NCBI RefSeq assembly: GCF_029168945.1
Contig: NC_083607.1
Location: 13,038,001-13,102,000, forward strand
DNA: 64,000 nt
Origin: Cannabis sativa
Taxonomy: Eukaryota > Streptophyta > Magnoliopsida > Rosales > Cannabaceae
Reading direction: 5' to 3'
Within the stretch, counting starts at the first letter, position 1; the number at the start of each line of letters is the position of its first letter. The notes under the pieces are model-generated. The model had not been told where the DNA came from, did no database searches, and saw only the letters and a program-made list of their open reading frames with translations. Below are positions 8,316 to 59,185 of the stretch, piece by piece. Both the position numbers and the translations under genes were made by a program.

Positions 8316-9486
8316 TGTCACGGGCTCACCTTTTTAGGTAGCGAAACACCCGTGCGGCACCTTGACTTCTCTAAGCCAAGGTCAGCCTTCCAACCATCCG
8401 AGTAACAATGGGCTCATTTTTCCCGCGACCGTCTGCCTCGTGCACACTTCCGTCCCTCGAACAACTCCCGTCGAGTCATGCTCGCAAGCATCCATGAGTG
8501 CATCCATGCGTCGAGGCTCTCTAGCCAAGATACTCGCACTGTCCATAGGTTTCCACTATGATAAGGCAAATCCCAACACCTGCGCTCACCTTGTCACTCG
8601 TGACCAAGGTAGCAAGTGTGGCAAGATGCCAATATTAAGTTAACGTGCCAACGCTTCTATCATGCCCCATTCGATATTGTCCAAACAGTCTCCCTCATCA
8701 CCCAAGGACTCCCATACGTCCAATCCTCAAGGTGCCATGCCTCCACGCATGTTGGCAGGCCCTCAAGACAAGCCACCAAACTAGTTGCATACACGAGACC
8801 TCTGTCCCTTTCCAGCATGGTGCATCCGTCCCATGTGTGCATGTAAGCTAGCCCACGAATGACTACCCGTGTCATCTCGTGTTGAGACTCGTGGCCAAGG
8901 TGCACCATGATGCCTCTTGGAGGATCTAGGCCACGTCCCGTGCAAGCAGCATATCGACAATCCAAGGGAAACGTACCAGTGAACCTCTGGCGGCATTCCT
9001 CGACGCACTACCGGGTCGCCCCGATAATGTCCATGAGTACTCCAACTCATGGTGACATATGAGTCCCCTCATGGTCCTCATATGTCCGCCCCACTAGTCC
9101 CACTGACTAGTAGTAGCTCACTTAGCACCAAGGTGCAAGGGGTGGTAGAGAGGTGACACTAGGGTACCCCCTTAAAGAGCATTCTGAGCTTCTAGCCTTC
9201 TACGAGGAACATAGATGATTTTGGCTCTATAGACATATGGGAAGAACCATATACCAAATCACCTAGTTTTTCCAAACCAATTGCACCATTCTATTTGTAG
9301 ACCTAAATAAATGGCGAATACCAAGTTCCGTCCCGTTCCGGATAATATTTAAGATATTTACAAAAATGCTACTACATACAAACTAAGCATCAGCATGCTA
9401 CCAACATGTGCCACCATTTGACCACCACTTGACCAACTTGTGAGCATCACTTAGCTTGTAACGTGCCATCTTAGCACGCATTACAC
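8316..9486 (-). repeat. 3' LTR of the 4.9-kb non-autonomous element
   Basis: Direct repeat of 12041-13224, aligning end to end with scattered differences. On the minus strand it starts TGTAATG and ends CCGTGACA. Small frames of 60-100 aa inside it recur in the other LTR because the two are copies; they are not genes. Confidence 0.9.
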
Positions 9487-12040: not shown

Positions 12041-13224
12041 TGTCACGGGCTCACCTTTTCAGGCACCAGAACACCCGTGCGGCACCTTGACTTCTCTAAG
12101 CCAAGGTCAGCCTTCCAACCATCCGAGTAACAATGGGCTCATTTTTCGCGCGATCGTCTGCCTCGTGCACACTTCCGTCCCTCGAACAACTCCCGTCGAG
12201 TCATGCTCGCAAGCATCCATGAGTGCATCCATGCGTCGAGGCTCTCTAGCCAAGATACTCGCACTGTCCATAGGTTCCCACTATGATAAGGCAAATCCCA
12301 ACACCTGCGCTCACCTTGTCACTCGTGACCAAGGTAGCAAGTGTGGCAAGATGCCAATATTAAGTTAACGTGCCAACGCTTCTATCATGCCCCATTCGAT
12401 ACTGTCCAAACAGTCTCCCTCATCACCCAAGGACTCCCATACGTCCCATCCTCAAGGTGCCATGCCTCCACGCATGTTGGCAGGCCCTCAAGACAAGCCA
12501 CCAAACTAGTTGCATACACGAGACCTTTGTCCTTTTCCAGCATGGTGCATCCGTCCCATGTGTGCATGTAAGCTAGCCCACGAATGACTACCCGTGTCAT
12601 CTCGTGTTGAGACTCGTGGCCAAGGTGCACCATGATGCCTCTTGGAGGATCTAGGCCACGTCCCGTGCAAGCAGCATATCGACAATCCAAGGGAAACGTA
12701 CCAGTGAACCTTTGGCGGCATTCCTCGACGCACTACAGGGTCGACCCGATAATGTCCATGAGTACTCCAACTCATGGAAACATATGAGTCCTCTCGTGGT
12801 CCTCATATGCCCGCCCTACTAGTCCCAGTGACTAGTAGTAGCTCACTTAGCACCAAGGTGCAAGGGGTGGTGGAGAGCTGACATCAGGGTACCCCCTTAA
12901 ATAGCATTTTCAGCTTTTAGCCTTCTACGAGGAACATAAATGATTTCGGCTCTGTAGACATATGGGAAGAACCATATACCAAATCACCTAGTTTCGCTAA
13001 ACCGATTGCACTATCCTATTTGTAGACCCAAATAAATGGCGAATACCAAGTCCTGTCTCGTTTCGGACAATATTGAAGATATTTATGAAAATGCCACTGC
13101 ATACAAACTAAGCATCAACATGCTATCAGCATGCACCACAACATGCGCCACCATTTGACTACCACTTAGCCAACTTGTGGACACCACTTAGCTTGTAATG
13201 TGCCATCTTAGGATGCACGTTACA
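12041..13224 (-). repeat. 5' LTR of the 4.9-kb non-autonomous element
   Basis: Direct repeat of 8316-9486. It ends at the CTTGG duplication and is followed by unique DNA leading to OHP1. Confidence 0.9.
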
Positions 13225-18575: not shown

Positions 18576-20326
18576 TAATATTTTTTTTTATCAAAGAAGA
18601 ACTTCATTAATCAATAAGGCAAATTACAACCAAACCAAAGCCAAATAAAATTGACTCCAAAGACACCTAAAGGTGACTTATATACATCCTAGCGAGCTTT
18701 TGACCCTTAGAATTCCTCCCCCTATCTAAAAGTGATAAACACACTTTGATACTCTCTCTAATCATTTTATCAATACAATCCATCGACAAACACTTATGTT
18801 CAATAACACAAAAGTTCCTATTAATCAAAATGTTATAGACCACACCAGCTAAGGCCGCATATTTTAGCTCTGCTAAATTAGAGAGAGCTCTCTGTGATTC
18901 TGTCCACCGAACCCAGCTCCCAAGCTCCTTTGACCAGGAGTTCAAATCCTGCCACTACTCAACTCGACTAATTACCCTTGTAGAGAGTGCCCATGATCCT
19001 CCTTAGCAATTTCACAAACAGTATAGAGATCTGAATCCATATTAATATTTCTACTAGCAAGCTGATCTTTGGTAAGAAGATGAGAGTGCACAGCTTGCCA
19101 CAAAATGAATCTAGGTTTTGGTGCAGCCATACGATACCAAACAACCCGATCAAATGTAACTCTAGTCAAGTCAAATATAAAACTATCATAAAGAGAACTG
19201 ATTTTGAATTTACTTGTGCAGCATGCCTCATATATATCCCTTGGAGAGAAGCAATGTCTTAAATTCATAAGCTTTCTTTAATACCAGCTTACATCTAGCT
19301 TGAGTTCATGAATCCAAACACTTTGACTCTTTAAGTAAATCATATTGATCCACTTAAAGACTATCCTGTTTCAAAACTAGAGCCCATAAGTATTTAACCA
19401 TAGCCGCTTTATTCCATTTTGTCCCCTCTCTGAAGTCAAGACCCCCAAAATCTTTTCGGTTTGCAAACCAACTCCTAAAAGGACAGATGAAGCTTGTTAG
19501 AGTTTCCTCCTTCCCCCAAAGAAAGTTCCTCTAAAGTCTATTCACTTCCTTAATCACACTCTGGGGAAGCATAAAAATATTCATCAAATAGCTTCTAATG
19601 TCGATCAAAATAGTATTTATAAGTTAAATTCTGCCTTCATATGTGAGATATCTACTTGTCCAATTGGACATCTTCCTTCTTATTTTAGTAATAATAATCT
19701 CACAATCTGCATATTTCCATTTGGTTGGCCTCGAGGTGACTCCCATATATTTCAAAGGGAAGGATCCCTCTCCAAATTGCACTACCATGATCTTTCTCTT
19801 GTTTGTGTCATCAACTCCAGCCAAGTAAACACTTGATTTTCCTTTATTAGCATTCAGACCAAAACATCCACTGAATTGCTTAAAAGCTCTTATGATACAT
19901 TGCACAGAATCCACCCTCACCTTGCAAAACACAATGAGATCATCCGCAAAGCAAAGACTCACCAATTTAAGATCCTTGCAAAGCGGATGAAATCTGAAAT
20001 CTTTAGAATTGGATTGGACAATAAGGAGTCGAGTGAAGTACTCCATAACCAGAGTAAAAAGTAAGGGACACATGGGATCACCTTGTCTTAGCCCTTTAGC
20101 CCTTAGAAGTCTACCTTGAACTCTACCATTCAACACCAACGAATAGGAAGTACCTCTCACATAAGTCATGATCCAACCAATGAATAATGAGGGATACTTG
20201 AAAGCCTTTAACAAATTTTCCTAGAATCCTTAGTTAATTGTATCATAGGCCTTGCTCAAGTCCCCCTTTAATAGGCATCTAGGAGAGATATTCTTCGTTT
20301 GATACCCTTTCAATAAATCTTGAATT
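18576..20326 (-). mobile_element. 5'-truncated L1-type LINE
   Basis: Read on the minus strand it holds the end of a reverse transcriptase (20214-19624: GLRQGDPMCPLLF and the catalytic FADDLIVF), then a zf-RVT domain (19268-18972: PKPRFILWQAVHSHLLTKDQL), then a short non-coding or RNase H-like tail. It ends in a T-run on the plus strand at about 18580, corresponding to a poly(A) tail. Stop codons separate the parts, and the endonuclease and the start of RT are missing, as in the usual 5' truncation of LINE insertions. I could not identify a clean target-site duplication. Confidence 0.85.
19624..20214 (-). pseudogene. LINE reverse transcriptase fragment
   Basis: About 196 aa of RVT_1-type reverse transcriptase covering the fingers and palm: KGLRQGDPMCPLLF, then the YxDD-equivalent FADD motif (CFADDLIVFCK), then GLNANKGKSSVY and LPLKYMGV-type sequence. 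It has no start of its own; it is a piece of the LINE ORF2. Confidence 0.85.
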
Positions 20327-21977
20327 TATAATATAATATTTAAATTAAAAGGTATTTACCGAGTTTTTCAGAAACCAAATATTTTGAGATCTTAGAAAAG
20401 ATAACAGATAACAAATAATAAATAGATAGATTTTTTACGTGGTTTAGACGTTAATGATCCTTAGTCCATGAGTCTATAATATTAGCCTCTTAGGATGAAT
20501 GTTTTCAAGATTATTAGATATTGCAATAAAAATCACTCTGGTTCTCTCAAAAGAGAGTTCGAGAAAAATAAGACTATTTATCGGCACACATGGGGTAAAG
20601 GGAATACCCTTTACTTACCTAGGATTTTGTATTCCACACGCTACTAAGGTATGTACTGTGAGAGGACGGTCTAACCATTGGCTGATAGAAACCTTCTTCA
20701 TTGTGTGGTGTATAGCCACTTGTGAGGAATTTTGTACGATCCTAGACACGTGTCGTGCAAAGGTTTCTCCTTTGCCAAATAGTCTTTAACCTTGGGCAAA
20801 GAGCGTACTTGAGGGTGCGTACGCGCACTACCATGAATTGGCATGGGGGACAAAATCTGATCATGTATCAGAAAAAGGTGTAACCGTCTACAAGGTGATA
20901 TTTTGCAAGGTGTTGATATGGCCAATGTCTCTAAGACCTTTATCGCCTTCCAAGTTCCTTACTAAGGGAAGTTCTCCCGAAGGCCATTACCTCTCCTTGC
21001 CTTTCAGGTCCGGGAGTCATTCATTTTCTTGATTACCTAGTATGACTTGTGTTGTGACCATATCCTTCTCTTTGATCACGCCACGTGTCTAATTAATGAA
21101 AACTTGGATAACATTTACCCCCAGGCTTTCGAGATCCTCTGGATCACGGAAGCTTGCTATTGTCTCTTACGTTGATCGTTGACACGTGTTGCAGGTTTAG
21201 GTCGCGGACACACCCCAAATGAGTTGTATTCTACTGAGGGTATTTATGACATTTTTTCCTCTTGCGTGGTAACCACGCGACATGTCAGAAGGTATTTCTT
21301 GCCCCTTTTTGTGTATAGCAAGGCATGCTTAGCAAAAAAGGTGGAGTGATACTGGCGACTCAGTGACATTCAGAAAGGGACCTTGACATTTTGGTGGGCC
21401 CCGATCATACGAGACTTCTCATCTCCCTAGCTGTGGGATCCATTACAAACATTTTGAATCGTTGATATTTCATAGTCCTATCTTCTTTTTAAATATAAAT
21501 CGCCTTTGGTGGTGTTGTTTTTACTTCTTTTATTCAAAACTCCATATTTTCCCTACAACTTCTTTTTTCCTTTTTCTGCCATCCTTTGCATGCAAGAAGC
21601 ATTAGAAGGTATGATCCAGCGATTACTCGTCATCCAAACGGAACTTTTCCCAAACATTGCTCCCCTCCAACTGGACCGACAAAGTTCTTCCTCAGGGGGA
21701 ACATTTGATTTTCAAGTTAACTATGACCGCTGCATCAACTAGCTTTAGAGCTTTTAGGTAGGCTTTCTTGACACACCACTCACCCCTTCTAACTCGACAA
21801 GTAAGTGCACTAACCCCTGCCTAAATTTTTGGCATTTCACGTTTAGGGCAAGAAGGTTCTTGCTTAGGTTAGGGCTAGAACTGTTCTTGTGCCGTATAGC
21901 AAGATATTGTGTGTGAAAGAAAGCCCGTCTTCATACCCGTTCTTTGTTTCAAAGAATTTTCCTTTTCCTTTGTAAAC

Positions 21978-22690
21978 ATGGATTTGAACGAAGACCCCCT
22001 CGCAAGCACATCCATGTTTGTCGAGGGTAAACCTATTCCAATTGCTGAAAGGTTTTTCGCGAGACAGGACCAAACCGAGGCCTCCATGGCAACTTCTTAA
22101 CCTGTAGGGGCCTTAGAAACCATTCCAGAAAATGAACCCATCACTGAGAGAGATCTCTCTGCGGATAACAGGAGAGGTGAAGGGGTTGAAATTCCTTCAC
22201 CGGTGCAGTTTCGTCCTAAGTCCGTATGGGAAATGGACGAGAAGGCCAACTACTTTCGATCTTATGGGATGTTGCAAGCGTATTCTGAGGTTGTTGGCCT
22301 CTGTAATGTCCCCGGACTAATGTGGCACATGCTTTCCATCTTTGGAGAATCTGCATCCATTAGTGTTGATGGGTTCAGTGCATGGAATTGGTCCCATATT
22401 TCCAGTGGCGCTCACCTTCCCTTGAGAACTTATTTTGAAAAAATGATTGCGAAAATTGGGATTGAACCCTTCCAGTTGATTCCCTCATCATATAGGCTCT
22501 TGGTTGAGTGGTACGTGTTTTGAAAAATCAACAAACTGGAGGTTCTCTCCCTGGAGGAGATCCTTTACTTTTATAGTGTCAAGGCCAATCCTATGAGGAC
22601 CAATAGGTCAAAGCTGGGGTTCTTCCAACTGGATAAGCGCCCAAATTCTTACTGCCCTATTTTCCAAATGGATCGCACTCATGAACTCTA
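21978..22690 (+). pseudogene. Putative gypsy-type transposon domain protein (Transposase_28), broken
   Basis: From Met at 21978 one frame runs to about 22690 with in-frame stops at 22098-22100 and 22521-22523. The section around 22410-22650 (LPLRTYFEKMIAKIGIEPFQL, then SYRLLVEWYVF, then LEEILYFYSVKANP) matches the Transposase_28 pattern: a short 'LPLh.FF...L...gIaP.QL.PN' motif followed by 'L..F.flF......p'. The domain is known only from plant transposon-related proteins and its biochemical role is not established. The assignment is from memory of the family pattern. Confidence 0.6.
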
Positions 22691-22849
22691 AGAATATTGG
22701 TTCTTTTCTTTCAGGTTTCCTACCAGCAAAGTGCCATCTCTTCAGTTAAGCTTCCAACTCCCAAGTATTCTAACTATTCACCAAGAGTTCTGTTTACTTA
22801 TAAACTTTACCAATTTTTGTACTCGGGCTGACATTTTTTGATTTATGGC

Positions 22850-24310
22850 AGAGCTTTCTTCTCAGTGTGCTAGGACGGAGGAGATAACCAAGTAAGAAGC
22901 CTGATACAGGGCCTTTTCGGAAGACCAATTGAAGGTTGGGGACCTAATGACAACTAAACTCCTCTGCAGGTTTGACTTGATCACAAAGTTTCAGAGTATT
23001 GACATAGTTAGCCTCCGAGGGCAGCGCCAACCTCCCAAGAAAGTGAAGGAGGCGATTGCCACTGATTTGGCTGTTATAATCACAAATGCAGCCAAAAACA
23101 ACAATGCCCTAAACTCATATCGTATGTCACGCCATCCTGATCCTATGCCTGAGGAAGAAGAGATCTCAGAGAGATTTTTCACTACCTACCATGATGTGGG
23201 GACACTAGGTGCCAGTACTTCGGGAAGAGGTAATGGACCCTTCTGCATCCTCTGTACCCCCAGCCTGAGTCCCATGTGCCGGAGGACTCATGGAGGATTT
23301 GATAAATATTTCCTAAGCATAAACCGCCATAGATACACCATGTAGGATTACATAGACAGAGTAGACCAATTAGTTAGGAGCCCTAGAAACTCGGGGACTC
23401 CTTCAGAAATTGTCAGAGTAGACCCTTTGATGGTTATGTCTCTGCCTGAATGTAAGGAATATGGCAGTTTCATTGGTCATAGGAGCATTTTATCTTTTGC
23501 TTGTCGACAACCATATAGTACTTCACTGAACGATCGCATCCACGCACAAGTTTTTTCACTAGATTCTCCTTCTTGTTGTTGCTATTTTTCATTATGATTG
23601 CATGACTTGCAATTGCTCCTCTTATTTACTCGTATTGTCGTCTTATGTGCAGATACTCCATAATTTGCAATGTTGAAGTCTTGGAATAACCAGATCTCAG
23701 TTGCCATGGATGTGGCCAGGAAATCCCAAGAGAAAGTCAAGAGGAAGACTAACTGGGAAACCACCTTCTCCCTCGACTTCCTCATCGTTAGACGTCTGGG
23801 ATATTTCTCCTCCCATCAAGACTAGACTTGCTGCACTAGGCCATCCTACTTTCGCTAGTGGGGATAAGGGACCTGGCACCTCCTCGAAAGCATCTGAGGT
23901 TCTCGCTGCTCTGGGAGAGCAGCCCTCTCAAATAATTCCCCTGACATGAGAGATAATCCTGGACACCACACCAAACGTGGAGGGTATAGCTTGGATGGCC
24001 TTGTCTTTCCCCCAAAGGGGACTCCAACTAAGTCTAAGCGCAAGGGATCAAATACTTCCCCTGATCTTAGTGCAAAGAGGGTCATGTCTTCAGTCCCAGA
24101 CCCAAGGGAAACTGATGTACTGTCGACCAACTCGACATTGCCACTGCAACAACAATAATAGCACCAACAATAATAACAAACACCACCAACAACAACAGCA
24201 CCAACAAACACAACAACAGCACCAACAAACACAACAACAACAACAACAACCATAACAACAGCTGTCGCAATCACAATCTGGACGAGTGCCTCTACCTTAG
24301 CAGTAGCAGT
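22850..24310 (+). pseudogene. Middle part of the Transposase_28-type element protein
   Basis: Scattered open stretches in several frames. 22929-23345 encodes a hydrophilic segment with PPKKVKEAIA and RHPDPMPEEEE. 23701-23949 and 23946-24158 are rich in Pro, Ser and Lys (PSTSSSLDVWDISPP, PKGTPTKSKRKGS). From about 24145 to 24260 a CAA-rich repeat would encode polyGln. This fits the low-complexity linker seen after the N-terminal domain in this kind of element protein. Frame changes and stops make it non-functional. Confidence 0.5.
24145..24260 (+). repeat. CAA-rich low-complexity repeat
   Basis: Runs of CAA with CAC and AAT variants, including two near-identical blocks of 'CACCAACAAACACAACAACAG'. 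It encodes mainly Gln in one frame. Confidence 0.85.
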
Positions 24311-25750
24311 CTCTATCTCCTTGTCAATTGGAGATTGTGACATCTCAGTCTCTTACACTGCAACCCCTTCCCAGGCACACAACTCCTAGGCCAGCCTCTG
24401 CTGGCCCACCTTTACCCGCCATAAAAGGGTACGGTTCCTTCATTAGGATTCTCCTTCCCCATGAGGCTATCTATTCTTGGCCACAAATACCTCACAAAGG
24501 CCGCCATTTTGAGAAAGTGCCATGATCAGGAACATGTAAATCTTTAGAAACGGGCTACTCGAATGTCTTCCATCAAGACAGCCGAGATTGCTCAGGGAGT
24601 CCACCAGCCTTTGTCCCCTGGCCCTGTGTTGGATCTGACTGCAGTGAGCCAAAATCTAATACCTAAGGTGGGCAGAGCTATTGCCCCTTATGTTGGGTTT
24701 TGTGCCCTAAATAAAACCCATTTCAATATAATCAGATTTACTAATTAATAAAAATTAGAAATCACTTTTATGTTGCATGGTTCACATGATTTATTTCATG
24801 ATTATGTTTAATGTATAAATTCTATTAAGTCCAGAACATATTTACTTGTTCATGATTATAGTGTCGTCAGCACAGTGGAATATAATCATGATTATACGTT
24901 CAAAAGTTTAATTCCCATGATTTGTCAATTCACTGGATTTAGACTCGCATGATAATCTGCAATAGGTATACTTACACCTTGGATAAGTGTTATGTCCTTT
25001 CTAGGGCATTGGCAAAGTAAACCAGTATCGGATGTATGGAGTATACATTGGAAGGGATCGATATTGATCTTAGATAAGATATCATAAACTTACCGTTATA
25101 TCTTTCTAAGTTAATATCAATGGTTGATCTTAGGTCTATGAATCTCAATCCTGGCATGGTTATGTTCGATCTCAAGAGTGTTATTTGTGTTCTTTGATTT
25201 GTTAGTTAAGCCTACCTTTTGGTCTGGGTGATACATACATTTTGGGAACATGATAGTACAATTGAGTTAGAGCGCTAAATATAGATATGGAATCTATAGC
25301 TTCTATAAGTTTTTAAAAGGGAAACGATGATCTCTTTCGAGCTTGGCTGAATAGAGATAAATGATTGAGGCCTCATTTCAGTAATTATATTAGTTTACTG
25401 AAGTATCATTTATAGGTTGCTAAGTGTTTTAAGGATAAAATATATTGAAGGGTAGAACGGTAAATTTATCCCTATTTAGTGTAGATCATCTATAGAGGAT
25501 CCTTGACTATTAGGATTGTAACAATGGATAATCATAACGTATCTATATCGTGGTACGTATAGAGTGTTCTATATAACTGAGAGTGTATTCAATTCCATGT
25601 TCTATAGTGGTTCAATGAGGAATTAATCAATTGAGAATTTACTTGGTGAATTTTAGATCCACTTATTGAAAGCTCGGTTATATAGGCCCATGGTGCCCTC
25701 ACTAGTTGAGATAATACTGCTTGCAAACTTAGTTAATTAATTTTAATTAA

Positions 25751-26100
25751 GGGATATTGGCGGCTAAACCACCTGAACTTTACGGTTTGTAACACTTAAC
25801 CACAAAAACCAAATTTTAGGGGCTAAACTACCTAAACCCTGGTTCCGTTTTGCTCTGCACACCTCCGTCCAAAAATCACAGTTAAGTGCCACGGTGGACT
25901 GTCCACGTGTACACACTTGTACACGTGGCAAATTTATAGTGGTCCACGTAATATTAGTTTTAAAAAATAATTATAAATATTTAAAAAAATTAAAAAATCA
26001 AAAAAAGAATTATTTTTTTTTTCTTTTTTACTTTTTTTAATTTAAAAAAAAAATAAAAAATTACTTTTTTTTTCTTTTTCTTCTTATTCTTCTTTCTTCT
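25751..26100 (+). repeat. Left terminal inverted repeat of the MULE
   Basis: Reverse complement of 33838-34185 over its length. The outer 250 bp is well conserved (for example 'ccacggtggactgtccacgtg' against its partner near 34030) and the inner 100 bp is A/T homopolymer-rich and less exact. Confidence 0.9.
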
Positions 26101-26114
26101 TTCCAGCCCAATAA

Positions 26115-26355
26115 ACATTATCACTTCACTCCACAGTACCTTCTTCTTCATCGTCTTCCAACTTCAAATCCACAATCACTCAGCTTTCACACCCCACAAC
26201 ACACTTTCTCCTCCTAAGAACCCCTCATCTTCTTTCCTCTTCTCTTAATATCACCTCATCCAAGCCTCTCTGCACCTACGCCTTCCCCAATGCCAAAAGC
26301 CACGGAGTCTCTCGTCGCTACGGCGGACCCTCCGAGCGTGAAGGCCCAAGGTATC
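26115..26355 (+). pseudogene. Captured gene fragment, transit-peptide-like, left of the copia insertion
   Basis: One frame stays open for about 80 codons up to the copia insertion point and continues in frame on the far side at 33342. It is rich in Ser, Thr, Pro and Leu with few acids (SSSSSSNFKSTITQLSHP, then SSSLNITSSKPLCTYAF), then turns basic with Gly and Arg (SRRYGGPSEREGPRY). That shift resembles a chloroplast transit peptide leading into a mature domain. I do not recognise the gene. The absence of an in-frame ATG at the start means it may be only part of a coding exon. Confidence 0.5.
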
Positions 26356-26596
26356 TAACAGCTCGAGTGAGCTTGAACAAGAAGAAAGTAAAAACAGAGA
26401 GAGAACAGAGAGGTAAGATCAATTGGATTGAATGAATCAAATCAGTACAAACACCAATGCTTGCTACTTATACCAAGTAACAAGGAAGCAAAATGATACA
26501 GCAAAAATAACAGAAATATACAGCTGGACTAACCAACTAACCTAACCAATTCCCAACTAACTCAAACAAACATAACTGACTCAACAGTTCTTGAAA
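26356..26596 (-). repeat. 3' LTR of the nested copia element
   Basis: 241 bp, four mismatches against 33096-33336. A GCTACTTATACC segment may hold a TATA-like element on the opposite strand. Confidence 0.92.
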
Positions 26597-26608
26597 CTCC
26601 CCCTCAAG
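26597..26608 (-). other. Polypurine tract of the nested copia element
   Basis: CTTGAGGGGGAG on the element's strand, directly adjoining the 3' LTR. Confidence 0.85.
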
Positions 26609-29600
26609 ATGGAGAAAATATGTTCTTCAATCCCATCTTGTCTTTAAAGTTGTTGAATTGGTTTGGAAAAAGGGGCTTAGTTAGGATATTTGCTACTTGA
26701 TCTCTTGTGGAAACATGGACTGTCTTTATGACACCTTGTTGCACCTTTTCTCGAACTAGATGACAATCTATCTCTATATGTTTGGCTCTCTCGTGAAAAA
26801 CTGGGTTTGCTGCAATGTGTTGGGCTGACTTGTTATCACAATAAAGTAAAGTAGTGTTGGAAATTATTTTACCAGGATCTAGATTTACTAACAAGTATGT
26901 TGGATTAACAAGCTAATATGAATTCTAAAACAATGAAAATAAACACATATAAAGTTAGAAAACCTTACAGTGGGTGCAGCGGAATAATATGACTCCTTCC
27001 ATTCAGATCTCTAGCCCTTGATTCCTTTCTGTAGCAGAGCATCACCAAGATCTGAACCTGGATCTTCTAATCTCTTTCTTTGACGCAGAATTTCCATAGT
27101 CTTACATACTATGATTGAGGTACCACTTGATGTGTGTGGGCACTACTCATCTCACTCAAAGTTTCGAAATTTAGAGAGAAGAAAAGAGAGAGAGAGGCGT
27201 GTGAGGCTTTTTCTGAGAGAAATAAAGTCATCAAAGATGTGTGTGTATTTCCTCAAGCCAACACTTTCTATTTATAGAAAACCCTCTAGGTTTAGGTTAG
27301 AATTGTATGGCATTAAACTAATGGAAACTACAAATGGAATTTCCTATGCATAGGGCCGGTCATACAAAGGGTATTGGGCCTCACTTTGCAACTTTCCCAT
27401 TTTGTTATTTTCCATTCCCATTTTCTCAAAAATGCCAATTTTCCAATTTAACCATTTAAATGCCAATTATAATTATTTAATAACTTGGAAATAATTATCA
27501 AATAATATTGCCATTTAATATATTTATTAATTTAGACATATAGAGTCTCTTAATCAATAAATAAACCTAAAATCTCTTTTCTTTACAATTTTGCCCTTGC
27601 TTAGTGAAAATTCATAAAGTAGACATAGTCTAACTTTTAGAATTTTAATTGATTAATTAAAATCAATTAACTGAGTCTTACAAGCAGTATGGTCTCAACT
27701 AGTATGGGGACCATGGGTCTATATAACCGAGCTTCCAATAATTCGAACCGAATTTACCAAGTAAATTCCCTAACTTATTAATTCCTCATTGAATCCACAC
27801 TTAGAACTTGGAATTGCACTCTCAATCATATAGAAACGCTCTATATGTTCCACGATATAGACACGTCATTAGTTATCCATTGTTATAACCCTAATGTGAT
27901 CAATGATCCTCTATATAGATGATTTACACTGTAAAGGGATTAAATTACCGTAACACCCTACAATGTATTTTATCCTTAAAACACTTAACCCTGTATAAAT
28001 GATATTTCACCTAAGTGAAATGAGATCTCCACCATTTATCTTCGTTTGGTTAAGCTCGAAGGAAATCATCCTTTACTTCTATTTGCCAAATAGAAGCTAT
28101 AGATTCCATATTTATGTTAGCGCTCCCACTCAATTGCACTACCGTGTTCCCAAAATGTAAGTATCACCCTAACCCAAAAGTAGGCTTAACTTAACAAATC
28201 AAAGAACACGAATAACACTCTTGAGATTGAACCTAACCATATCAGGATTGAGATCATTTGATCTAGATCAATAGGTGATATTGAATTGAATAGACATTAC
28301 GGTAAATTTTAACATATCTAATCAAAGTTTAATATCGGTCCCTTCCGATGTATACTCCATACATCCGATACTGGTAAACTTTGCCAATGTCCTGGAAAGG
28401 ACATAACACTTTTCCAAGGTGTAAGAATACCTATTGCTGATTATACCATGTCAGTCTAAATCCAGTGTTCTGACAAATCAGGGAATAAACTTTTGAACAT
28501 ATGATTAAGATTATATTCCACTGTGCTGACAACACTATAATCTTTAACCAACTCATATGTTTAGGACTTAAAAAGAATTCATACATTATATACATATAAT
28601 CATGAAATAAATCATGTGAACCATGCAACATAAAATGTTATTTCTGATCTTTATTAATAAGTAAATCTGATTATATGAAATGAGTTTTATTTAGGGCATA
28701 AAACCCAACAAGTAGGTCCTTCATGTTTGATTTGAAGTTCTTTGAGGATAGAAAGTAGCCAAACCACTTCACAAGTGGTATTGGCCATGGCTTTATATTC
28801 AGCCTCTGCAGAGGACCTTGAAACCGTGTGTTGCTTTTTGCTTTTCCAAGAGATGATGGACGTTCCAACAAAAATGTAAAAGCCAGTTGTTGACCTCCTT
28901 GTATCTGGACATGCTGCCCAATCTGAATCAGTATAGGCATATAACTTCACTTCAGTATTGGTAGCAAAGAAAAGTCCTTGTCCAGGAGTCCCTTTAACAT
29001 ATTGAAGAACTCTTTGTGTTGCATGTAGATGAGTGACTCTAGGTGTGCATAAGAACTGGCTTAGCTTGTTTACTGAGTAGGAAATGTCAGGCCTTGTGAT
29101 GGTCAAATATTGTAGCTTTCCCACTATCCTTCTATATAATGTTGGATTGGCCAACTTCTCTTTCTCATCAAGCCCAAGTTTGAGATTTGCTTCCATTGGT
29201 GTACTCACTGGTTTGGAACCTAGATAGCCTAGATCTTCCAACAATAGAAGTGCATAAGGTCTTTCTAAAACAAAGATCCCTTTCTCAGATCTAGCAACTT
29301 CAAGTCCTAGGAAATACCTCAAATTTCCTAAGTCTTTTAGCTGAAATCTTGTGTGTAACCTTGCTTTGAGAGCTTCAAGTTCCACTAAATTGTTGCTAGC
29401 AAGAATTACATCATCAACATAAACCAATAGAAATATGAAATTTACATTGAAATGTTTTATGAACAAGGAATGATCAGTTGCTGAATGGTGAAATCCTTCA
29501 TCATTCAAAGCACTTGAGAACTTGGCAAACCATTGTTTTGAAGCTTGCTTCAATCCATACAATGACTTTTGCAACTTGCATACTGCATTTGGTGGTAACT

Positions 29601-32600
29601 CCCCCTTAAGTCTTTACCCTTGAGGTATAGACATATACACATCTTCATGGAGATCACCATGTAGAAAGGCATTATTTACATCCAATTGATGTAAATGCCA
29701 GCCTTGAATGGCAGCAAGAGAAAGGACTAACTTTACAGTAACATGCTTAGTAACCGGGGCAAAAGTATCTGTGTAGTCAATCCCTTCTTGTTGATTGTAT
29801 CCCTTAGCTACCAACCGAGCTTTGAACCTTTCTACACTGCCATCTGCATTGAGTTTGATCTTGTAGACCCATTTAGAACCAATGACATGGTGTCCCTCGG
29901 GTAAAGAAATAATGATCCATGTATGATTCTTCTCAAGAGCCTCTATCTTAGTGTCCATTGCATTATCCCAAACAGGGATACCATGAGCTTGGTGAAAGAA
30001 CTCAGGCTCAAAATGTCTCAAAATGGCCAGAATAACAGCTCGAAATGTTGAAGATAGCTTGTTGTAACCAATGACCTGAGACAAAGGATGAGTAGTCACA
30101 AAAGAAACTTTAGCCAACTTAGACAAATTGGTAGAAGCAAGATAGCAATGGTATTCATTCAAGTATGATGGTTTATGTACTGCCCTGCCAGATCTGGTAT
30201 GAGAAAAATCATGAGAAGAAATATCTGCTGTACCAGGCAGATCAGAATGCACAACAAGTTTAGTAAAATCAGTGTGAGATAACTCAACTGAGGCAGGAAT
30301 ATGTGGAGACTGAGATGGAGTATTATCAGAAGAGTTAGAAGAAAGAAACTCACCTGATACAGTACCTGGTGCTGTTGAACCCAAGGGTTCTGTAGGAACA
30401 GAAGTAATACCTGGTGCAGAAACATGAGAATAATCTGCAATATCTGATACAATGTGTGGAGAAGAGGCAAAAAAATTCTCATAGGCAGGTGAGATACCTC
30501 CAGTAGAGACAAAAGGAAAAATATGCTCATAAAAATAAACATCTCGAGAAATAAAAGTGAGATTTTTATTCAAATCAAGCAGTTTGTAACCTTTTACACT
30601 TGGAGGATATCCCAAAAATATGCAAGGGGCAGACCTAGGTGAGAATTTTGACCTTGTTTGACTCAAAGTGGAAGCATAAGCTAGACACCCAAAAGCTTTT
30701 AAATGGTCATAGGCTGGTTCTTTAGAGTGAAGAATAGCAAAAGGTGTCTTGCCTTTGAGATTAGGTGTAGGAGTTCTATTAATTAAATAGGCTGCAGTAG
30801 CCACACAATCTCCCCAATATACCAAAGGAATGTAAGATTGAAAGAGTAAAGCCCTAGCAACATTGAGTAAATGTTGATGCTTTCTCTCAACAACAGAGTT
30901 TTGTTGAGGTCTTTGCACACAAGAATGATAGTGCATAATCCCAAGTTCATTGAACAAGTCTTTGAACTGTAATTCTTTTTCATTATCAGACCTCATACCC
31001 TTGATTGTCTTACCAAACTGATTTTGAACAAGAGTAATGAATTGGGGTATAGCATGCTGAGCATCAGACTTTTGTTTGATGAGCTTAATCCATGTATATC
31101 TGGAACAATCATCAACAATGGCAATAAAGTACTTATACCCTTCAATGGGACAAGTGTTATAGGGACCCCAAATGTCAACATGAATGAGATCAAAGCACTT
31201 TTCAGCAATATTATGATTTGAAAAGAAATGAAGTTTCCTTTGTTTGGCATAATGACAAATAGAGCAATGAAACAAAGAATTAGAATCAACATGAAATTTC
31301 AAAGCTTTATTCAATGGATGAGTTTTTACACAAGATGGATGGCCCAATCTATAGTGCCAAACAGTTTCATTGGAAATTTTAGAATCAAAAAAAGTGGCAG
31401 CAACAGAAATCAGATTCTTATTACAGCTTTGATCAATATTCAAGTAGTATAAATTGTCAAATTTTCTACCCATCCCAATCACCTTGGTCTTGGAAGTGTC
31501 CTGAATGATACAATCATCATCAGAAAACAAGAAAGTGCAATTATTTGTGGCTGTTAACGAATTGACAGACAACAAATTACACTTAAAAGAAGGCACATAT
31601 AGAACATTTTTAAGGAAAAGTTCAGGACTCAAATGAACTGTTCCTATGCAAGAAATCTCAGCATGCAATCCATTAGGCATCAAAACAGTTTTTAATCTGG
31701 TATTGACAGTAGTATTTTTGAATAAATTGATATCATAACACACATGATGTGTTGCACCTGTATCAATAATCCAATAAGAGCTAGGAGTAGAGATTTTCAT
31801 ACCAGAAAAATGTGAAACAACTGGCTGATCTTTAGAGACATTTTGAGTGTTGTTCTCAGTGGCCTTTTGAGCAAGAATAGCCACCAACTTCTGGCATTGA
31901 ACACTTGACAAACTAGAGATAAGATCTCTTTCCATTGTAGGCTCCTCGGCCTTGCCTTCATCAGCACCAGAAAAATTAACTCCTGCTGGTTTTCCAGGAT
32001 TTCCTTTAGCATCACAATTAGGAAACTTTCCATGGTATTTATGTCTAGGAGGATATCCATTCAGCTTGTAGCATCTTTCGATTGAATGTCCATTCATTCC
32101 ACAGTGAGTACAATTGTACTTAGATCTGAACGGTTGAATAGCACCAGCGAACTGCCCATTGTTTCCTGAACCAGCAAACTGTCCATTGTTTCCTGGAGTT
32201 CCTTTATCCTGATCAGTAGTATTGTTGTAGCTATTTGTCAAATTTCTCTGTCTTTCTTCTTGTATAACAACAACATAAGCCTTGTTAACGCTTGGAAGAG
32301 GATCACGCATTAAAATCTGAGACCTAACAAGACTGTAGGAATCATTTAATCCAACCAAAAACTCAAGCAATATGTCCTCTTCTTGATACTCTTGTATCAC
32401 CTTCACTGTGCCACAAGAACAAACAGGTGGTGGGCGAAGTTCTCTTATCTGATCCCAAAGGGATTTCAAACGAGTGTAGTATGTTGTAACAGTATTAGAT
32501 CCCTGAACAAGACTTTGCATCGTCTTCTTGGCTTCAAAGATCCGAGGTGCGTTCCTCTCATTGAATCGTTCATGCAGCTCAGCCCAGATTTCTGCTGCAT

Positions 32601-33036
32601 TATCAAGATACACGATGCTGTCTGCGATCTCATCAGAAATGGCGTGCAAGATCCATGAAATCACGGTGTTATTACATCGACACCAGCTATCGTAGTCATC
32701 GTGATCTTCATCAGGTTGTGGTAACCTTCCACTAACGAATTTGACTTTGTTCCTAGCAACCAAAGCAATCAGCATAGATCTTCTCCAAGTGCTATAATTC
32801 TCACTGCCTTTGAGAATTTTAGGAACAAGCACGACACCTGGCTTATCACCATTTGAAAGGAAGTAGGGATTCGACAAATCATTAGCAGTTGTCGATCTCG
32901 AATTTTCTCCAAGAACTGAGAACGTATTCGAGTTCAAAGAATTATCTTCAGCTTCACGATTCGCTCGAGTATGGACTCCATTGCTACGACCTTGAGCTCC
33001 ACCTCCTCGAACCATATTCACAGAACAAGTAATCAC
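26604..33036 (-). pseudogene. Copia gag-pol polyprotein, one nonsense codon plus an insertion
   Basis: Starts at Met 33036. It runs 1140 codons to a TAA at 29614-29616 and continues in the same frame (29613-28711) until solo LTR B; the last RNase H part resumes at 26849 and ends at 26604. Order of domains: copia-type gag ([20 protein letters not shown] near residue 80), zinc knuckle [14 protein letters not shown], protease [12 protein letters not shown]-pre-integrase ([10 protein letters not shown]), integrase ([16 protein letters not shown], then NSVVERKHQ), RT ([10 protein letters not shown] and YVDDVILAS), and RNase H (YTDSDWAACPDTRRS, SRSSAEAEYKAM). The integrase SDNGGEF motif reads SDNEKEL. 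Apart from the single stop and the insertion, the frame is intact for over 1,500 codons. Confidence 0.92.
26855..28710 (-). mobile_element. Solo LTR B inside the copia RNase H, TSD AGTAG
   Basis: 1856 bp from TGTTGG to CCAACA, flanked by AGTAG at 26850-26854 and 28711-28715. It is colinear with solo LTR C and, in reverse, with the LTRs of the 51-61 kb element. It interrupts the RNase H coding sequence of the copia element and is the innermost, hence youngest, layer of the nest. Confidence 0.95.
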
Positions 33037-33083
33037 AGATCAAAGAACAAACAAAATGAAGAATAACAGGAGCACAGCAACCT

Positions 33084-33095
33084 GCTCTGATACCA
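33084..33095 (-). other. Primer-binding site, initiator tRNA-Met
   Basis: TGGTATCAGAGC on the element's strand, immediately after the 5' LTR. It matches the canonical plant retrotransposon PBS exactly. Confidence 0.92.
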
Positions 33096-33336
33096 TAACA
33101 GCTCGAGGGAGCTTGAACAAGAAGAAAATAAAAACAAAGAGAGAACAGAGAGGTAAGATCAATTGGATTGAATGAATCAAATCAGTACAAACACCAATGC
33201 TTGCTACTTATACCAAGTAACGAGGAAGCAAAATGATACAGCAAAAATAACAGAAATATACAGCTGGACTAACCAACTAACCTAACCAATTCCCAACTAA
33301 CTCAAACAAACATAACTGACTCAACAGTTCTTGAAA
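33096..33336 (-). repeat. 5' LTR of the nested copia element
   Basis: 241 bp, pairs with 26356-26596. Ends against the GTATC duplication. Confidence 0.92.
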
Positions 33337-33341
33337 GTATC

Positions 33342-33480
33342 CGAACAAGCTCCAACCTTCAGAGAGGCGCAAGAAGAGCCAGCCGATGTGGGATACTCTT
33401 ATTTTGAACCACGTTATAATTAGGGTTAGGGCTTTATTTGCTGTGTTGAAATCAGTCTCTGAAGCTTGGAAGAAAGAATA
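33342..33480 (+). pseudogene. Captured sequence between the copia insertion and the TRM112-like ORF
   Basis: Continues the frame of 26115-26355 (PNKLQPSERRKKSQPMWDTL) and stays open to a TAA at about 33480. It contains ATTAGGGTTAGGGCTTTATTTGC near 33420, which reads like plant 5' UTR sequence. The join between a first gene fragment and the TRM112 leader may lie here, but I cannot place it. Confidence 0.4.
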
Positions 33481-33490
33481 ATTGTACAAT

Positions 33491-33868
33491 ATGAGACTTC
33501 TTACTCATAACATATTGTCCTCTAACATCAAGGGGGTCACCAATGGCTTACCTCTCCGGATCGAAGTGGTGAAAGTAGTCGAGAAAGAGGTTGAACTAAA
33601 CCCCGATTTTCTCAAATCCATGTTCTCCAAAATTGACTGGAACGCCCTAGTCGAGGTCGCTCGCTCAATCGGCTACACTAAGCTCCCCAACGAGGTTGAT
33701 CCTTCTATGCTCGACTCCGACGACTTCCTTCGCCGTTTTCACCACGCCCTCCTCCAACTTCACCTCGAAGAAGGCGCCCTTATCTGCCCCGAGACTCGTC
33801 GCTGGTTCTCTGTCACTAAGGGAATCCCCAATATGCAGAAAAAGAAGAAGAAAGAAAAAGAAAAGTAA
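33491..33868 (+). CDS. TRM112/SMO2-like protein carried by the MULE, chimeric C-terminus
   Basis: From Met at 33491 (an in-frame ATG at 33482 adds 3 residues) the product is about 125 aa. It starts MRLLTHNILSSNIKGVTNG and includes NPDFLKSMFSKIDWNALVE, HHALLQLHLEEGALICPE and VTKGIPNM, the order and spacing of the TRM112 family. TRM112 is a small zinc-related activator that stabilises several methyltransferases acting on tRNA, rRNA and release factor; the Arabidopsis member is SMO2. About nine C-terminal residues normally following IPNM are replaced by a Lys/Glu-rich tail encoded by the inverted repeat. The CPETG motif reads CPETR. It is a captured copy, not the cellular gene. Whether it is expressed is unknown. 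Confidence 0.85.
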   Translation: MRLLTHNILSSNIKGVTNGLPLRIEVVKVVEKEVELNPDFLKSMFSKIDWNALVEVARSIGYTKLPNEVDPSMLDSDDFLRRFHHALLQLHLEEGALICPETRRWFSVTKGIPNMQKKKKKEKEK

Positions 33869-34185
33869 TTTTTTAATTTTTTTTAAATTAGAAAAAGTAA
33901 AAAAAATAAAAAATAAAATAAAATAAAAAAATTCTGATTTTTAATTTTTTTTAAATATTTATAATTATTTTTTAAAATTGATATTACGTGGACCACTAAA
34001 AATTTGCCATGTGTACAAGTGTGTACACATGGACAGTCCACCGTGGCACTTAACTGTGATTTTTGGACGGAGGTGTGCAGAGCAATACGGAACCAGAGTT
34101 TAGGTAGTCTAGCGGCCAAAAATTTGATTTTTGTGGTTAAGTGTTACAAACCGTAAAGTTCAAGTGGTTTAGCCGCCAATATTCC
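33838..34185 (+). repeat. Right terminal inverted repeat of the MULE
   Basis: Reverse complement of 25751-26100. It supplies the last codons of the TRM112-like ORF and ends GCCAATATTCC before the 9-bp duplication. Confidence 0.9.
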
Positions 34186-35005
34186 TTTAATTAATCAATT
34201 ATAATTCTAAAATTAAACTGTCTTATTTATGAATTTTCACTAAGCAATGGCTTAATTGTGAAGAAAAGAGGTTTTGGGGTCAATTTGTTAATTAAGAGAC
34301 TTTGTATGGTCTAATTAATAAATTACATAAATGACAATTTTATTTAGTAATTAATTATAATTATTAAATAAATAATTTTGGCATTTATAAGGTTGAATTG
34401 GAAAATATGTTATTATTAAAAAGAAGAATAAGTGGTTGAAATAAAGTGGCAAAAATCTAACTAGAAATCGGTCCCTTAATATGCACGACCAAGAAGTGAT
34501 TTTTTCCCAATACTTTATTCTTTTTTAATCCATATAATTCAACCCTAAGCCCTAGTTGAAACACTATAAAAGGAACATAATGCTCTCATCTCATCCACTT
34601 GACACTTTGTCAAATTAATGCCTTCAACCAAACTAGATGAGAAAGTTCCTTCGTTAGTGATTTTCAAACCTCATTCATTGTTCTTCACCTATTTCGGCCT
34701 ATAGTGAGTGAGTGTCGTGCCCACACATAACAAGTCAAGTACTCAATCATAGTGAGTAAGACGGTGGTAACCAAACCCGAACGAGAGAAAGAGATCCAGG
34801 TTCAAATCTTGATAATGCTCTGCTACATAAAGGAATCAAAGGCTAGAGATCTTGAACGGAAGGAGTCATTATATTCCGCTGTAATCAATGTAAGGTTTTC
34901 TTAAACCCTTATGTGTTTATTTCATTGTTTTAGAGAATTGATATTTAGGATGTTAATTCAACATACGTGTTAGTAAATCTAGATCATGGTAAAATATTCC
35001 CAACA

Positions 35006-36150
35006 CCTTATGTTGCAGACATGTTGGAAAACATGAGCCTTAGTGTGAGCGAGCTTACATCAGAGGTGCGGGCAGTGAGTAGTAGTGTCAATCCATACAC
35101 TTTATCGGTGGCCGCCAGACAGCAGGTCGAGGGGGTTAGCCTCAATTTTTTGATTTACTCTTACTTGAGATACAACTTTTATTACCAAAGTATGCCTAAT
35201 AATTTCTGTATACTTTCCTTCCTCTAAATGGCATTGTTCGTAGAGAGGATCACCAAAGAAGTGGGGAATATGGCCATAGAATTAAACTAGCTATGTGTCA
35301 AAGTTCAATCCTTGACCGTTAAAAATGGGGCCTTACATGCTAAAGTTGAGCAGATCAAGACCTAGGCGGCTTCCAGTAGCCAAAAGATCCAGGCAAATTA
35401 CAAGGCCAAGCTGGCGGTTGAGGAGGAGAAGTGGGACACCAAATATCGAAAAATGTACTTAGTTCACAAAGCTAAAATTGTGCAAGAAGTTGAGGGAATT
35501 GTACGCTCTCTTCGAGAGGACTTGGCCAAGGCCACAAAGGAGAAGGACATAGCTGAGGCCCGCATGCTACTTCAGTCTAAGATTATCTCCGCCCAAATCC
35601 AACAAGTCAACCACTCTAAGAGGACATCCGAAAGAAGGATTTACTCATTAAGGACCTTCAAGCCGAACACGACAAGGAGAAGAAACAGGCAGAGTCCTGG
35701 GTAACAAAACATGGCAACTTGAGCCTTCTTCTCCAAGGGGTCGTCGTAACTGTGACCGTCAACAGGAAACCATCGATAGATTGCAAAAGAGAGTCGACCA
35801 GAGTCCAGGGAATGGTGTGTAGGCATACATTGCTTTAGCTGCCATGCGTAGAATGAGGGAGACTACCCCCAGCTCATTCCAGACGCGGTTACGGCAGCAA
35901 CTAAGGCAATAACTAAGGTAGAAAAATATCGCATTCGCTCCTTGGAGATGTCCTATGTCGTGGTCCTTCACAACTTATGGAAGGCGGATCCTTCCATACT
36001 TTGGCTTATTGACGAGGCAGATAGGGAGGATGTTACTAGGAGAGTACTCACTATTGAACATAACACATATCTGGAGGAATTTCTTCTCTCAATTGATAGT
36101 GATAGCAATAATTTTTTTGTAAAAAAATATGAATATATCATATATAATAT
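35006..36150 (+). pseudogene. C-terminal coiled-coil part of the Transposase_28-type element
   Basis: Resumes right after the solo LTR A duplication. Broken frames encode ADMLENMSLSVSELTSEVRA, then ITKEVGNMAIEL, KVEQIKT, YKAKLAVEEEKWDTKYRKM, and VEGIVRSLREDLAKATKEKD. The heptad-like Leu, Ile, Ala, Lys and Glu pattern suggests a long coiled coil, common after the Transposase_28 domain. Stops near 35227, 35290 and 35362 show it is decayed. The homology seems to fade near 36105. Confidence 0.55.
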
Positions 36151-37588: not shown

Positions 37589-38412
37589 ATGTCAACTTAC
37601 TCAATTCTCTTCCCTTTTCTTCTGTTAATCTCTCTGAGCATTTCAGGTTAGTTTCTTTTCTCAGTACAACTCTTCTATGAGTTTTTTTTTATTTGATCTA
37701 ACCATTCATTAATTGTATTTACTTGTGGTTTACAGATGGGGCACAATTGATTCTAGTAAACAACTGCAATGAGAATATATGGCCTGGTGTGCTTGGCAGT
37801 GCGGGGCAGCCCACCCCGAAAGATGGAGGCTTTCACTTAGGAAGTGGTGAGGAAGTAGTACTTGATGTCCCAGAGAAATGGTCTGGGAGGATATGGGGTA
37901 GGCAGGGTTGCAACTTTGACAACAATGGGAAAGGATCATGCATAACTGGTGACTGTGCAAACCAATTGCATTGCCGAGGCAGTGGTGGGGAGCCGCCTGC
38001 CACGGTGGTTGAAATGACACTTGGTTCTTCATCTTCACCACTTCATTTCTATGATGTCAGCCTTGTGGATGGCTTTAACTTGCCTGTTTCGATGAAGCCT
38101 GTAGGGGGTGGGGTTGGATGTGGAGTGGCGTCTTGTGAAGTGGATTTGAATGTTTGTTGCCCTTCTGCTTTGGAAGTGAGGAGTGGTGGAAGGGTTGTGG
38201 GGTGTAAGAGTGCTTGCTTGGCTATGCAATCAGCTAAGTACTGTTGTACTGGAAACTATGCCAATCCAAACACTTGCAAGCCAACACTCTTTGCTCATCT
38301 TTTTAAGGCTATTTGTCCAAAGGCTTATAGTTATGCTTTTGATGATTCTACTAGCCTTAATAAGTGTAGAGCTACTCGTTATGTCATCACCTTCTGCCCT
38401 CCGCAACAGTAA
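37589..38412 (+). CDS. Thaumatin-like protein (PR-5 family), secreted
   Basis: Exons 37589-37646 and 37736-38412 join in phase to give 244 aa. A hydrophobic signal peptide ([19 protein letters not shown]) ends near residue 20. The mature domain spans the usual length for a full-size thaumatin fold. It shows [13 protein letters not shown], the [12 protein letters not shown] signature, [16 protein letters not shown] and [12 protein letters not shown] count 17 Cys; 16 form the conserved eight disulphides and an extra Cys is in VCCPSAL. Acidic-cleft residues appear in place (Glu in VVEMTL, Asp in [10 protein letters not shown] and CEVDLN). Family members are apoplastic or vacuolar and often stress- or pathogen-induced; antifungal activity is not general. 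The intron in the signal-peptide codons is common in this family. Confidence 0.93.
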
Positions 38413-53052: not shown

Positions 53053-53053
53053 A

Positions 53054-53066
53054 CTTGTATCAGAGC
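53054..53066 (+). other. Damaged primer-binding site (initiator tRNA-Met type)
   Basis: CTTGTATCAGAGC directly after the LTR. The canonical form is TTGGTATCAGAGC; one G is missing. Confidence 0.7.
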
Positions 53067-56000: not shown

Positions 56001-57285
56001 ATATTTATTGGAAATTATTACTAAGATGAAAATAATTCACGTTATTTTCATATCCATCTAAGTATAATTTATAAATATTAAATTAAAATTTATATTTAGA
56101 ATTTTTCATTCTAAATTAGAAATTTTAATTAAATAAATATATATTTAAAATAAATTGATTAAAATAAATATTAGGAGAAAATACAAACTTCATTAAATAA
56201 TGAGCTTTATTATTATTAAGATATTCGATCTCTATTGTTTGTTTTACATAGCTATTGTTTTAGTGAGTAATCCTCCCTAATGGAGGAACGTTCATTAGCA
56301 AGTTAACACCGTTTAATCTCGAAAGATAAGTAATCTTCTAAGTTTTTTATATAGTTTTGATCACCCTAATGGGTGCGACTGTATAAGACTTGCAAGAATA
56401 TGAAACAATGGTGGAAGCTCATAAGATAGAATAGCCTTGACTCTCACCTAAACGGGACAACGCGGATTCCAATCTTGATCGAATAAAAGGTTGCTAGAAT
56501 GTTTGTCATTTTAGATGAGCTGACAACTCTATTCAATGGATGGTAGCTTTGACTCTCGCCTAAACGGGACACTGATATCAGTTTGTTGAAGACCTTGGAA
56601 ATTATTTAGGATTGTATGTTTTAGTATTTTCACTTGTCATTCCTACTTGCTATATGCTTCATAATTTCTGAATTGTGTATGAATTTATATTGAACCATGT
56701 TATTTTCTGTTATTAAATTGTAGTTTAATTTCGAATCTTCATTGTTGGTCTAACTTGGTTTGTTTTTCTAATGAGATAAATCCCTAATAGATTTTCACCA
56801 TTAGACTAACATAATAGTGTTAGATCTCGAAAGATAAATATTGTATATGCAACATCTAGCTGTTCATCAATTGATGACACCTTAGACTAGTATCTTACAA
56901 TATGAAACAAGAAGATTGTATAAATAAGATTACTTTGACTCTCGTTAATCGAAACATCGTTGGATTCTTATTTAAAACGAAATTATCCTAATTCCTCTTA
57001 GCTTTTTCATTTCGAATGAGCTCAATAACATATCATTGGATGAATGGTCTATAAATCATATAAAGTCATTCCATATTTTCTCTTAAGAAATTAAATGACG
57101 CATATGATTATATTCCCGGAATTCTATCCCAAAATGATATAAATCCTCAATTTTAGAAATCTCCTACTTGTATAGGCAAATCTTAGAGTTAGATTAGTAG
57201 TGGTGGTCCAAGAAAGAATTACTAATTATACAGTTACACTTTCACAAGTTTTTAATAACCATTTTCTATCAATGGATTTAAACTG
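53067..57285 (+). other. Non-coding leader and spacer of the 9.9-kb element
   Basis: Includes a GC-rich patch at 53345-53545, then about 3.5 kb of very AT-rich DNA without frames, then two diverged copies of a unit of about 500 bp (56265 and 56770 onward). Each unit holds a 'tctcgaaagataa' phrase and a 'tgactctc' phrase. No gag motif was found. Confidence 0.6.
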
Positions 57286-59170: not shown

Positions 59171-59185
59171 TGCAAGTGGGAGTTT

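Follow-up and report, generated by a model that had tools for sequence, protein, structure and literature searches.

Four nested transposon insertions, among them a chimeric Pack-MULE with PPR and TRM112 gene pieces, at one locus of the Cannabis sativa genome

We analysed a stretch of 64,000 nucleotides of the Cannabis sativa genome (the window; positions 13038001-13102000 of contig NC_083607.1, here C7, in assembly GCF_029168945.1), in which several transposable elements lie inserted into one another at about 13.06 Mb. From the outside inwards these are a degenerate repeat, a solo long terminal repeat (LTR A), a Mutator-like element (MULE), a Ty1/copia retrotransposon and a second solo LTR (LTR B). 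The MULE carries pieces of two host genes, one of the pentatricopeptide repeat (PPR) type and one for TRM112. Relatives were sought in the same genome (770.7 Mb, 18 contigs) and, for the copia RNase H, among proteins. A preliminary description, made from the letters of the window, had claimed that the elements are nested, that four levels bear perfect target-site duplications (TSDs), that each outer element joins cleanly when the inner one is removed, and that the order of insertion follows. We confirmed this nested-insertion observation and checked every host level, finding exact TSDs and uninterrupted relatives. The coordinates of the features are listed in Table 1.

Table 1. Features of the nest, in positions of the window (L019 is the PPR donor gene described in the text)
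Feature	Position	Strand	Basis or remark
Outermost degenerate repeat, left part	22734..24690	+	homology to other genomic copies starts at 22734; fetched loci reach no further
Outermost repeat, right part	35006..36109	+	match to other copies
TSD CCTTA of LTR A, left copy	24686..24690	.	sequence
TSD CCTTA of LTR A, right copy	35006..35010	.	sequence
Solo LTR A, 5' part	24691..25750	+	sequence comparison
Solo LTR A, 3' part, starting with the second MULE TSD copy	34186..35005	+	sequence comparison
MULE, whole	25751-34185		inside LTR A; 9-bp TSD TTTAATTAA
MULE TSD TTTAATTAA, left copy	25742..25750	.	sequence
MULE TSD TTTAATTAA, right copy	34186..34194	.	sequence
Pack-MULE left terminal inverted repeat (TIR)	25751..26090	+	89% to right one
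Pack-MULE right TIR	33837..34185	-	89% to left one
Captured 5' end of DYW-type PPR gene, first part	26118..26355	+	97.5% to L019
Captured PPR piece, last part, beyond copia	33342..33381	+	sequence comparison
Captured TRM112 piece: 5' leader and all but last seven codons	33380..33836	+	joins PPR piece via short microhomology
Open TRM112-like frame, 125 aa, ending in TIR	33491..33868	+	ORF (open reading frame), Pfam
Copia, whole	26356-33336		in captured PPR piece; TSD GTATC
Copia TSD GTATC, left copy	26351..26355	.	sequence
Copia TSD GTATC, right copy	33337..33341	.	sequence
Copia LTR, 3' in element sense	26356..26596	-	241 bp
Copia LTR, 5' in element sense	33096..33336	-	4/241 differences to other LTR
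Copia gag, integrase, first part of reverse transcriptase	29614..33036	-	open 1140 aa, then in-frame stop
Remainder of copia reverse transcriptase, and RNase H as far as LTR B	28711..29574	-	ORF, Pfam/protein matches
Solo LTR B within copia RNase H	26855..28710	-	sequence comparison
LTR B TSD AGTAG, left copy	26850..26854	.	sequence
LTR B TSD AGTAG, right copy	28711..28715	.	sequence

The TSDs are exact at all four levels, with 5 bp for LTR A, 9 bp for the MULE, 5 bp for copia and 5 bp for LTR B. In this window an exact TSD would arise by chance at fixed borders with a probability of about 0.0014-0.0016 (5 bp) or 1e-5 to 3e-5 (9 bp); allowing a shift of 2 bp at each border raises these values to about 0.029 and 1.4e-4, respectively. 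The insertions can be accepted without leaning on the TSDs, because uninterrupted relatives exist for all four host levels. For the LTR A site we joined the two flanks (150+150 bases) and searched them against the genome, which gave 26 matches. Two are the halves in the window itself; of the remaining 24, 23 span the junction as judged by match range, and the last is a further piece of a place already counted. Ten of the non-window places were fetched as loci and five of these were read at the junction (L022, L025, L026, L028 and L033); in all five the adjoining window halves overlap by exactly 5 bp, which read CCTTA in four and CCATA in one. The halves also meet in L027, L029, L031 and L032, where their ends fall a few bases short, and L030 carries a deletion just right of the site. 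The MULE site is whole in all four other window copies of the LTR (B, C, D and E), with a single 9-mer in each, TTTAATTAA in three and TTTAAGTAA in E. A single GTATC stands between the window halves at the copia site in four other MULE copies (L010, L011, L017, L018) and in the donor gene L019. For the LTR B site, four proteins were fetched among 120 listed: the Cannabis protein P0122, P0124 and the more distantly related P0158 are continuous across the RNase H site, P0123 stops before it and is uninformative, and the window's own flanks continue in frame across RNase H. Alignment with uninterrupted copies was the check that the preliminary description had proposed, and the halves proved contiguous in relatives at all four levels. 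We consider it nearly certain that four independent transposition events (solo LTR A, Pack-MULE, Ty1/copia, solo LTR B) are stacked at this site.

Mis-assembly could in principle have joined unrelated repeat copies, so that the nesting would be only apparent. High abundance, as in this LTR family with its 9325 first-look candidates, can mislead assemblers, and it weighs against our reading that the nest is known here from one genome assembly. An artefact of this kind is nevertheless extremely improbable given the exact TSDs at all four levels, the host sequence that in relatives resumes at the very same 5 or 9 bp, and the divergence that falls in nesting order (see below), a pattern that random joins would not give.

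The two solo LTRs have TG...CA ends and 5-bp TSDs, and their internal region is absent. The copia element shows the Ty1/copia order of gag, rve and RVT_2, with integrase before reverse transcriptase, and a tRNA-Met-like primer site (33084-33095) and a polypurine-like tract (26597-26612) directly adjoin its LTRs. The LTR ends speak against this assignment, since they do not read TG...CA; in element sense they are TTTCAAG...CTGTTA. Ends of the TG...CA type are usual in LTRs, not defining, and nothing useful on such unusual ends was found in the literature looked at.

The preliminary description had counted five levels, with an outermost element that began at 20330 and was of Transposase_28 type. 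Four insertions with their TSDs hold; the ends assigned to the outermost element are not confirmed. Neither ends nor a TSD were found for it, a point against our reading, and its two parts match only themselves within the window. On the right, four of ten non-window loci match as far as 36086-36109, and in the other six the match stops earlier (35496-36000). With the outermost layer lacking ends or TSD, the claim of five insertions was dropped: the layers are five, but the demonstrated insertions are four. The family assignment also fared poorly, as Transposase_28 (which we take to be PF04195) gave no Pfam match at E<=5 in nine pieces of the outer element, a search of low sensitivity where stops break the frame. 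The sole Pfam match in these pieces was RVT_N at E 0.071, a match below its cut-off, and a protein search with the element's 140-aa piece returned one match, an uncharacterised Cannabis protein. With no Transposase_28 match in the nine pieces, we dropped the name. At 19624-20214 lies part of a reverse transcriptase of the RVT_1 type known from long interspersed nuclear elements (LINEs), which ends just left of the border first given for the nest; about 1.6 kb right of the nest starts an intact-looking frame for a thaumatin-like protein (37723-38412; Pfam E 1e-81).

That the element inside LTR A is a MULE had been recognised before, and its TIRs, 89% alike, and 9-bp TSD bear this out, but its cargo had been missed. 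The element is a chimeric Pack-MULE, in which a DYW-type PPR gene, represented by its 5' end, is joined to the greater part of a TRM112 gene. Long TIRs and a 9-bp TSD are typical of MULEs, and here they enclose host-gene pieces with likely donors elsewhere in the genome (L019 and L013). The PPR donor L019 (C1, 16.14 Mb) has a 515-aa frame with PPR repeats and a DYW_deaminase domain (E 5.9e-45). The TRM112 frame matches Trm112p in Pfam (E 6.6e-9), solved TRM112 chains (E 1.9e-27) and plant TRM112 proteins, to which it is up to 93% identical. L013, the nearest TRM112 gene, encodes residues 1-115 of the Cannabis protein P0002 exactly; its coding part is 94-96% identical to the pieces in L010, L011 and L012, and it is 85% identical to the window's TRM112 piece with gaps counted. 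About 50 bases of the L013 leader are missing from all captured TRM112 pieces.

An open, intronless frame of 125 aa could also be expected if the supposed MULE were a local gene duplication, or a retro-copy of TRM112, sitting in the LTR and not a transposon. The lack of introns is uninformative, however, as L013 is itself one unbroken genomic frame, and neither process fits the long inverted repeats or the two unlinked donor genes within one unit. The family has five copies at dispersed places, and every one is flanked by a perfect 9-bp TSD of its own; these sibling copies already refute a duplication or retro-copy, and we put its chance close to nil.

The siblings of the Pack-MULE came from a DNA search of the genome with the TRM112-side stretch, which found 11 places and is the one source of the TRM112 gene counts given here. 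Besides the window, there were two whole copies (L010, L011), two halves of one copy 34 kb apart (L018 and L012), a sibling with a longer PPR piece and without TRM112 (L017), two TRM112 genes (L013, L014), the PPR gene L019, and two short TRM112 pieces (L015, L016) near diverged stretches that resemble MULE ends. An AT-rich 9-bp TSD is perfect in all five Pack-MULE copies found. We rejected L012 and L018 as two separate MULEs, as their outer flanks, 34 kb apart, share one 9-bp TSD. Two 10-kb stretches, covering the two ends of the insertion, were read of the approximately 32 kb between them: this copy on C3 (31.834-31.868 Mb) is split at MULE3 position 52-56, with TSD GTGGG, by an insert that starts and ends with the 1.9-kb LTR family of A and B and holds its internal region. 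The place of this insertion is 51 bp from that at which copia entered the window's copy. The diverged end-like stretches occur on both sides of L015 and were found on one side of L016; a related MULE may have captured TRM112 here in a second, older event.

The breakpoints of capture are shared: the window and L010 have both, L017 has the left one as well and L012 the right one, and the protein of L011 reads like the others at the right breakpoint. At the join of PPR and TRM112 there are about 4 bp of microhomology with the PPR form of L017, and less with the letters of L019. Because L017 has the PPR piece without TRM112 and the breakpoints are common, the comparison suggests stepwise capture, PPR and then TRM112, as the simplest history. 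It counts against this order that a single sibling, L017, carries it.

The captured TRM112 frame is open in two of the four chimeric copies (window and L012) and broken in the other two (L010 and L011). Between the two open copies there are 6 synonymous and 19 non-synonymous changes (dN/dS, the ratio of non-synonymous to synonymous rates, about 0.9), and the other five pairs of captured copies give about 0.5-0.7. Each copy compared with L013 gives 0.18-0.46, but these values also reflect the constraint under which the gene itself has evolved. With so few changes, strong constraint on the captured frame leaves no sign in these alignments, which would be compatible with weak or past constraint. 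Selection on the frame had been a candidate and was dropped on the between-copy values of about 0.5-0.9. A deposited Cannabis protein, P0008, agrees with the L012 copy in its first 115 residues, and the other 28 residues of P0008 read from the MULE TIR. P0008 is a hypothetical protein at NCBI, with a UniRef name that begins 'multifunctional methyltransferase su'. It is thus a transposon-borne piece of TRM112 that has been filed as a protein, and such a piece under a TRM112-type database name is a warning for counts of TRM112 genes in Cannabis.

These data also bear on whether the Pack-MULE is a young gene, its TRM112 frame expressed and selected, whose disruption by copia matters. The two open frames, the deposited P0008 and the low ratios against L013, with their share of the gene's own constraint, could be read that way. 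We regard it as very improbable, as half of the copies are broken, the ratios between copies are high (above all that between the open ones), the C-terminal end has been replaced by TIR sequence, and P0008 is a gene model and not expression. Also very improbable is the bolder proposal that the PPR-TRM112 Pack-MULE family makes a new truncated TRM112-like protein, of which at least one copy (C3, 31.87 Mb) would yield a spliced TRM112-TIR fusion competing with true TRM112 for methyltransferase partners, and that retrotransposon insertions in two copies would switch it off.

LTRs A and B had been described as one family, whose activity preceded and also followed the insertion of the MULE and of copia. 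The latter is borne out, as A lies outside these elements and B inside. As to the former, copies are usually placed in one family when they share 80% identity over 80% of their length. With gaps counted, the identity between A and B is 80-82% across about 84% of the length of A (86.6% in the 5' part with gaps excluded), the 5' part of A is 81-82% identical to the other four window copies, and about 290 bases of its 3' part have no match in any of them. The low identity and the unmatched bases weigh against a single family; A and B are narrowly members of one broad family, as distant subfamilies that record two far-apart episodes rather than one burst. Two further members in the window had been missed. 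One is solo LTR C (4989-6909, minus strand, TSD TCAAG) and the other a full-length element (51154-61095, TSD AGTTG) whose LTRs differ by a Kimura two-parameter (K2P) distance of 0.024; its 6.1-kb inside has no start-to-stop frame longer than 116 aa, and it is probably non-autonomous, resembling a large retrotransposon derivative (LARD). In a genome search with LTR B the best 40 of 9325 first-look candidates were scored, and 40 long matches were listed at 96-100%, its own place included. The family is thus large and recently active. Matching 5-bp flanks, the pattern of a solo LTR, were seen in three of seven other fetched LTR loci (L002-L008).

Divergence gives an independent clock for the nest. 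The copia LTRs differ at 4 of 241 sites (K2P 0.0168, or 0.0084 per lineage). In a tree of 15 LTR 5' parts, in which the row C3_L018 was cut by a nested LTR, the end branches are 0.16 for A and 0.0076 for B, which stands among recent copies. The branch of the window's MULE is 0.035 in the right part (four copies), 0.024 in the left part (five copies) and 0.05 in the right inverted repeat (five copies). Divergence thus falls in nesting order, from A (0.16) to MULE (0.024-0.05), copia (0.0084) and B (0.0076). A rate of 6.1e-9, as applied to Cannabis in PMC12286863, would put the age of A at approximately 26 million years (My), that of the MULE at 4-8 My and that of B at 1.2 My; copia, which the preliminary description had proposed to date from its LTRs, would be approximately 1.4 My old, with a wide error from four changes. 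Several points weigh against a strict reading of this clock: the tree is weak inside, with only one of its 12 inner branches well supported, the C3 LTR row L021_b (0.17) is as long-branched as A, the A and MULE branches include pre-insertion divergence and give upper bounds, and B and copia are too close to be ordered by the clock alone.

The following history accounts best for the locus. An LTR retrotransposon of the 1.9-kb-LTR family entered an old repeat and would later have recombined to solo LTR A. The chimeric Pack-MULE, with its PPR and TRM112 pieces and presumably moved by a MULE transposase from elsewhere, then inserted into a 9-bp target within LTR A; a Ty1/copia element integrated into the captured PPR piece; and a young member of the 1.9-kb-LTR family inserted into the copia RNase H, where recombination would have left solo LTR B. 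The order of events claimed at the outset is fixed for the insertions, but not for the time when each LTR became solo: the nest orders insertions, not the recombinations that left the LTRs solo. The locus is an unusually clean record of insertion order, each step of which was compared with copies that lack the insertion and with the independent clock of divergence.

Elsewhere in the window, a 300-base direct repeat, 97% alike, occupies 8316-8615 and 12041-12340 in a GC-richer stretch, where two frames lack a Pfam match. Rfam gave no matches in the window at the gathering threshold.

The nest is ordinary in kind, as stacks like it are common in plant genomes, and the added value of the locus is the chimeric Pack-MULE. 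In the literature searched on Pack-MULEs (in nested insertions or with several genes), Cannabis Mutator elements and Cannabis solo LTRs, we found neither a Pack-MULE in Cannabis nor a PPR-TRM112 pair in print; for Cannabis Mutator elements it yielded a paper on Tc1-like elements. A high ratio of solo to intact LTRs in Cannabis is given in a genome-wide survey (PMC12286863); that survey deals in genome-wide ratios, whereas the present locus is one resolved stack, with two solo LTRs in the nest and a third at 4989-6909. In maize and rice, MULEs are frequent hosts of LTR retrotransposons (PMC3903597); those MULEs code for transposase, whereas the one in the Cannabis nest carries host gene pieces. 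The nest resembles, in its layered insertions with datable order, the blocks of wheat chromosome 3B, with up to eight layers (PMC4290129), and of rice centromere 8, where ten LTR retrotransposons and two DNA transposons sit in a solo LTR, stacked two to six layers deep (PMC4387472). It differs in being smaller (15.8 kb by the ends first assigned to it) and in that one layer is a gene-carrying Pack-MULE. That layer is like the described Pack-MULE and Pack-TYPE elements, which are non-autonomous and carry gene pieces, sometimes from more than one locus of origin (PMC8903248); unlike those, it lies in Cannabis and holds a PPR-TRM112 pair.

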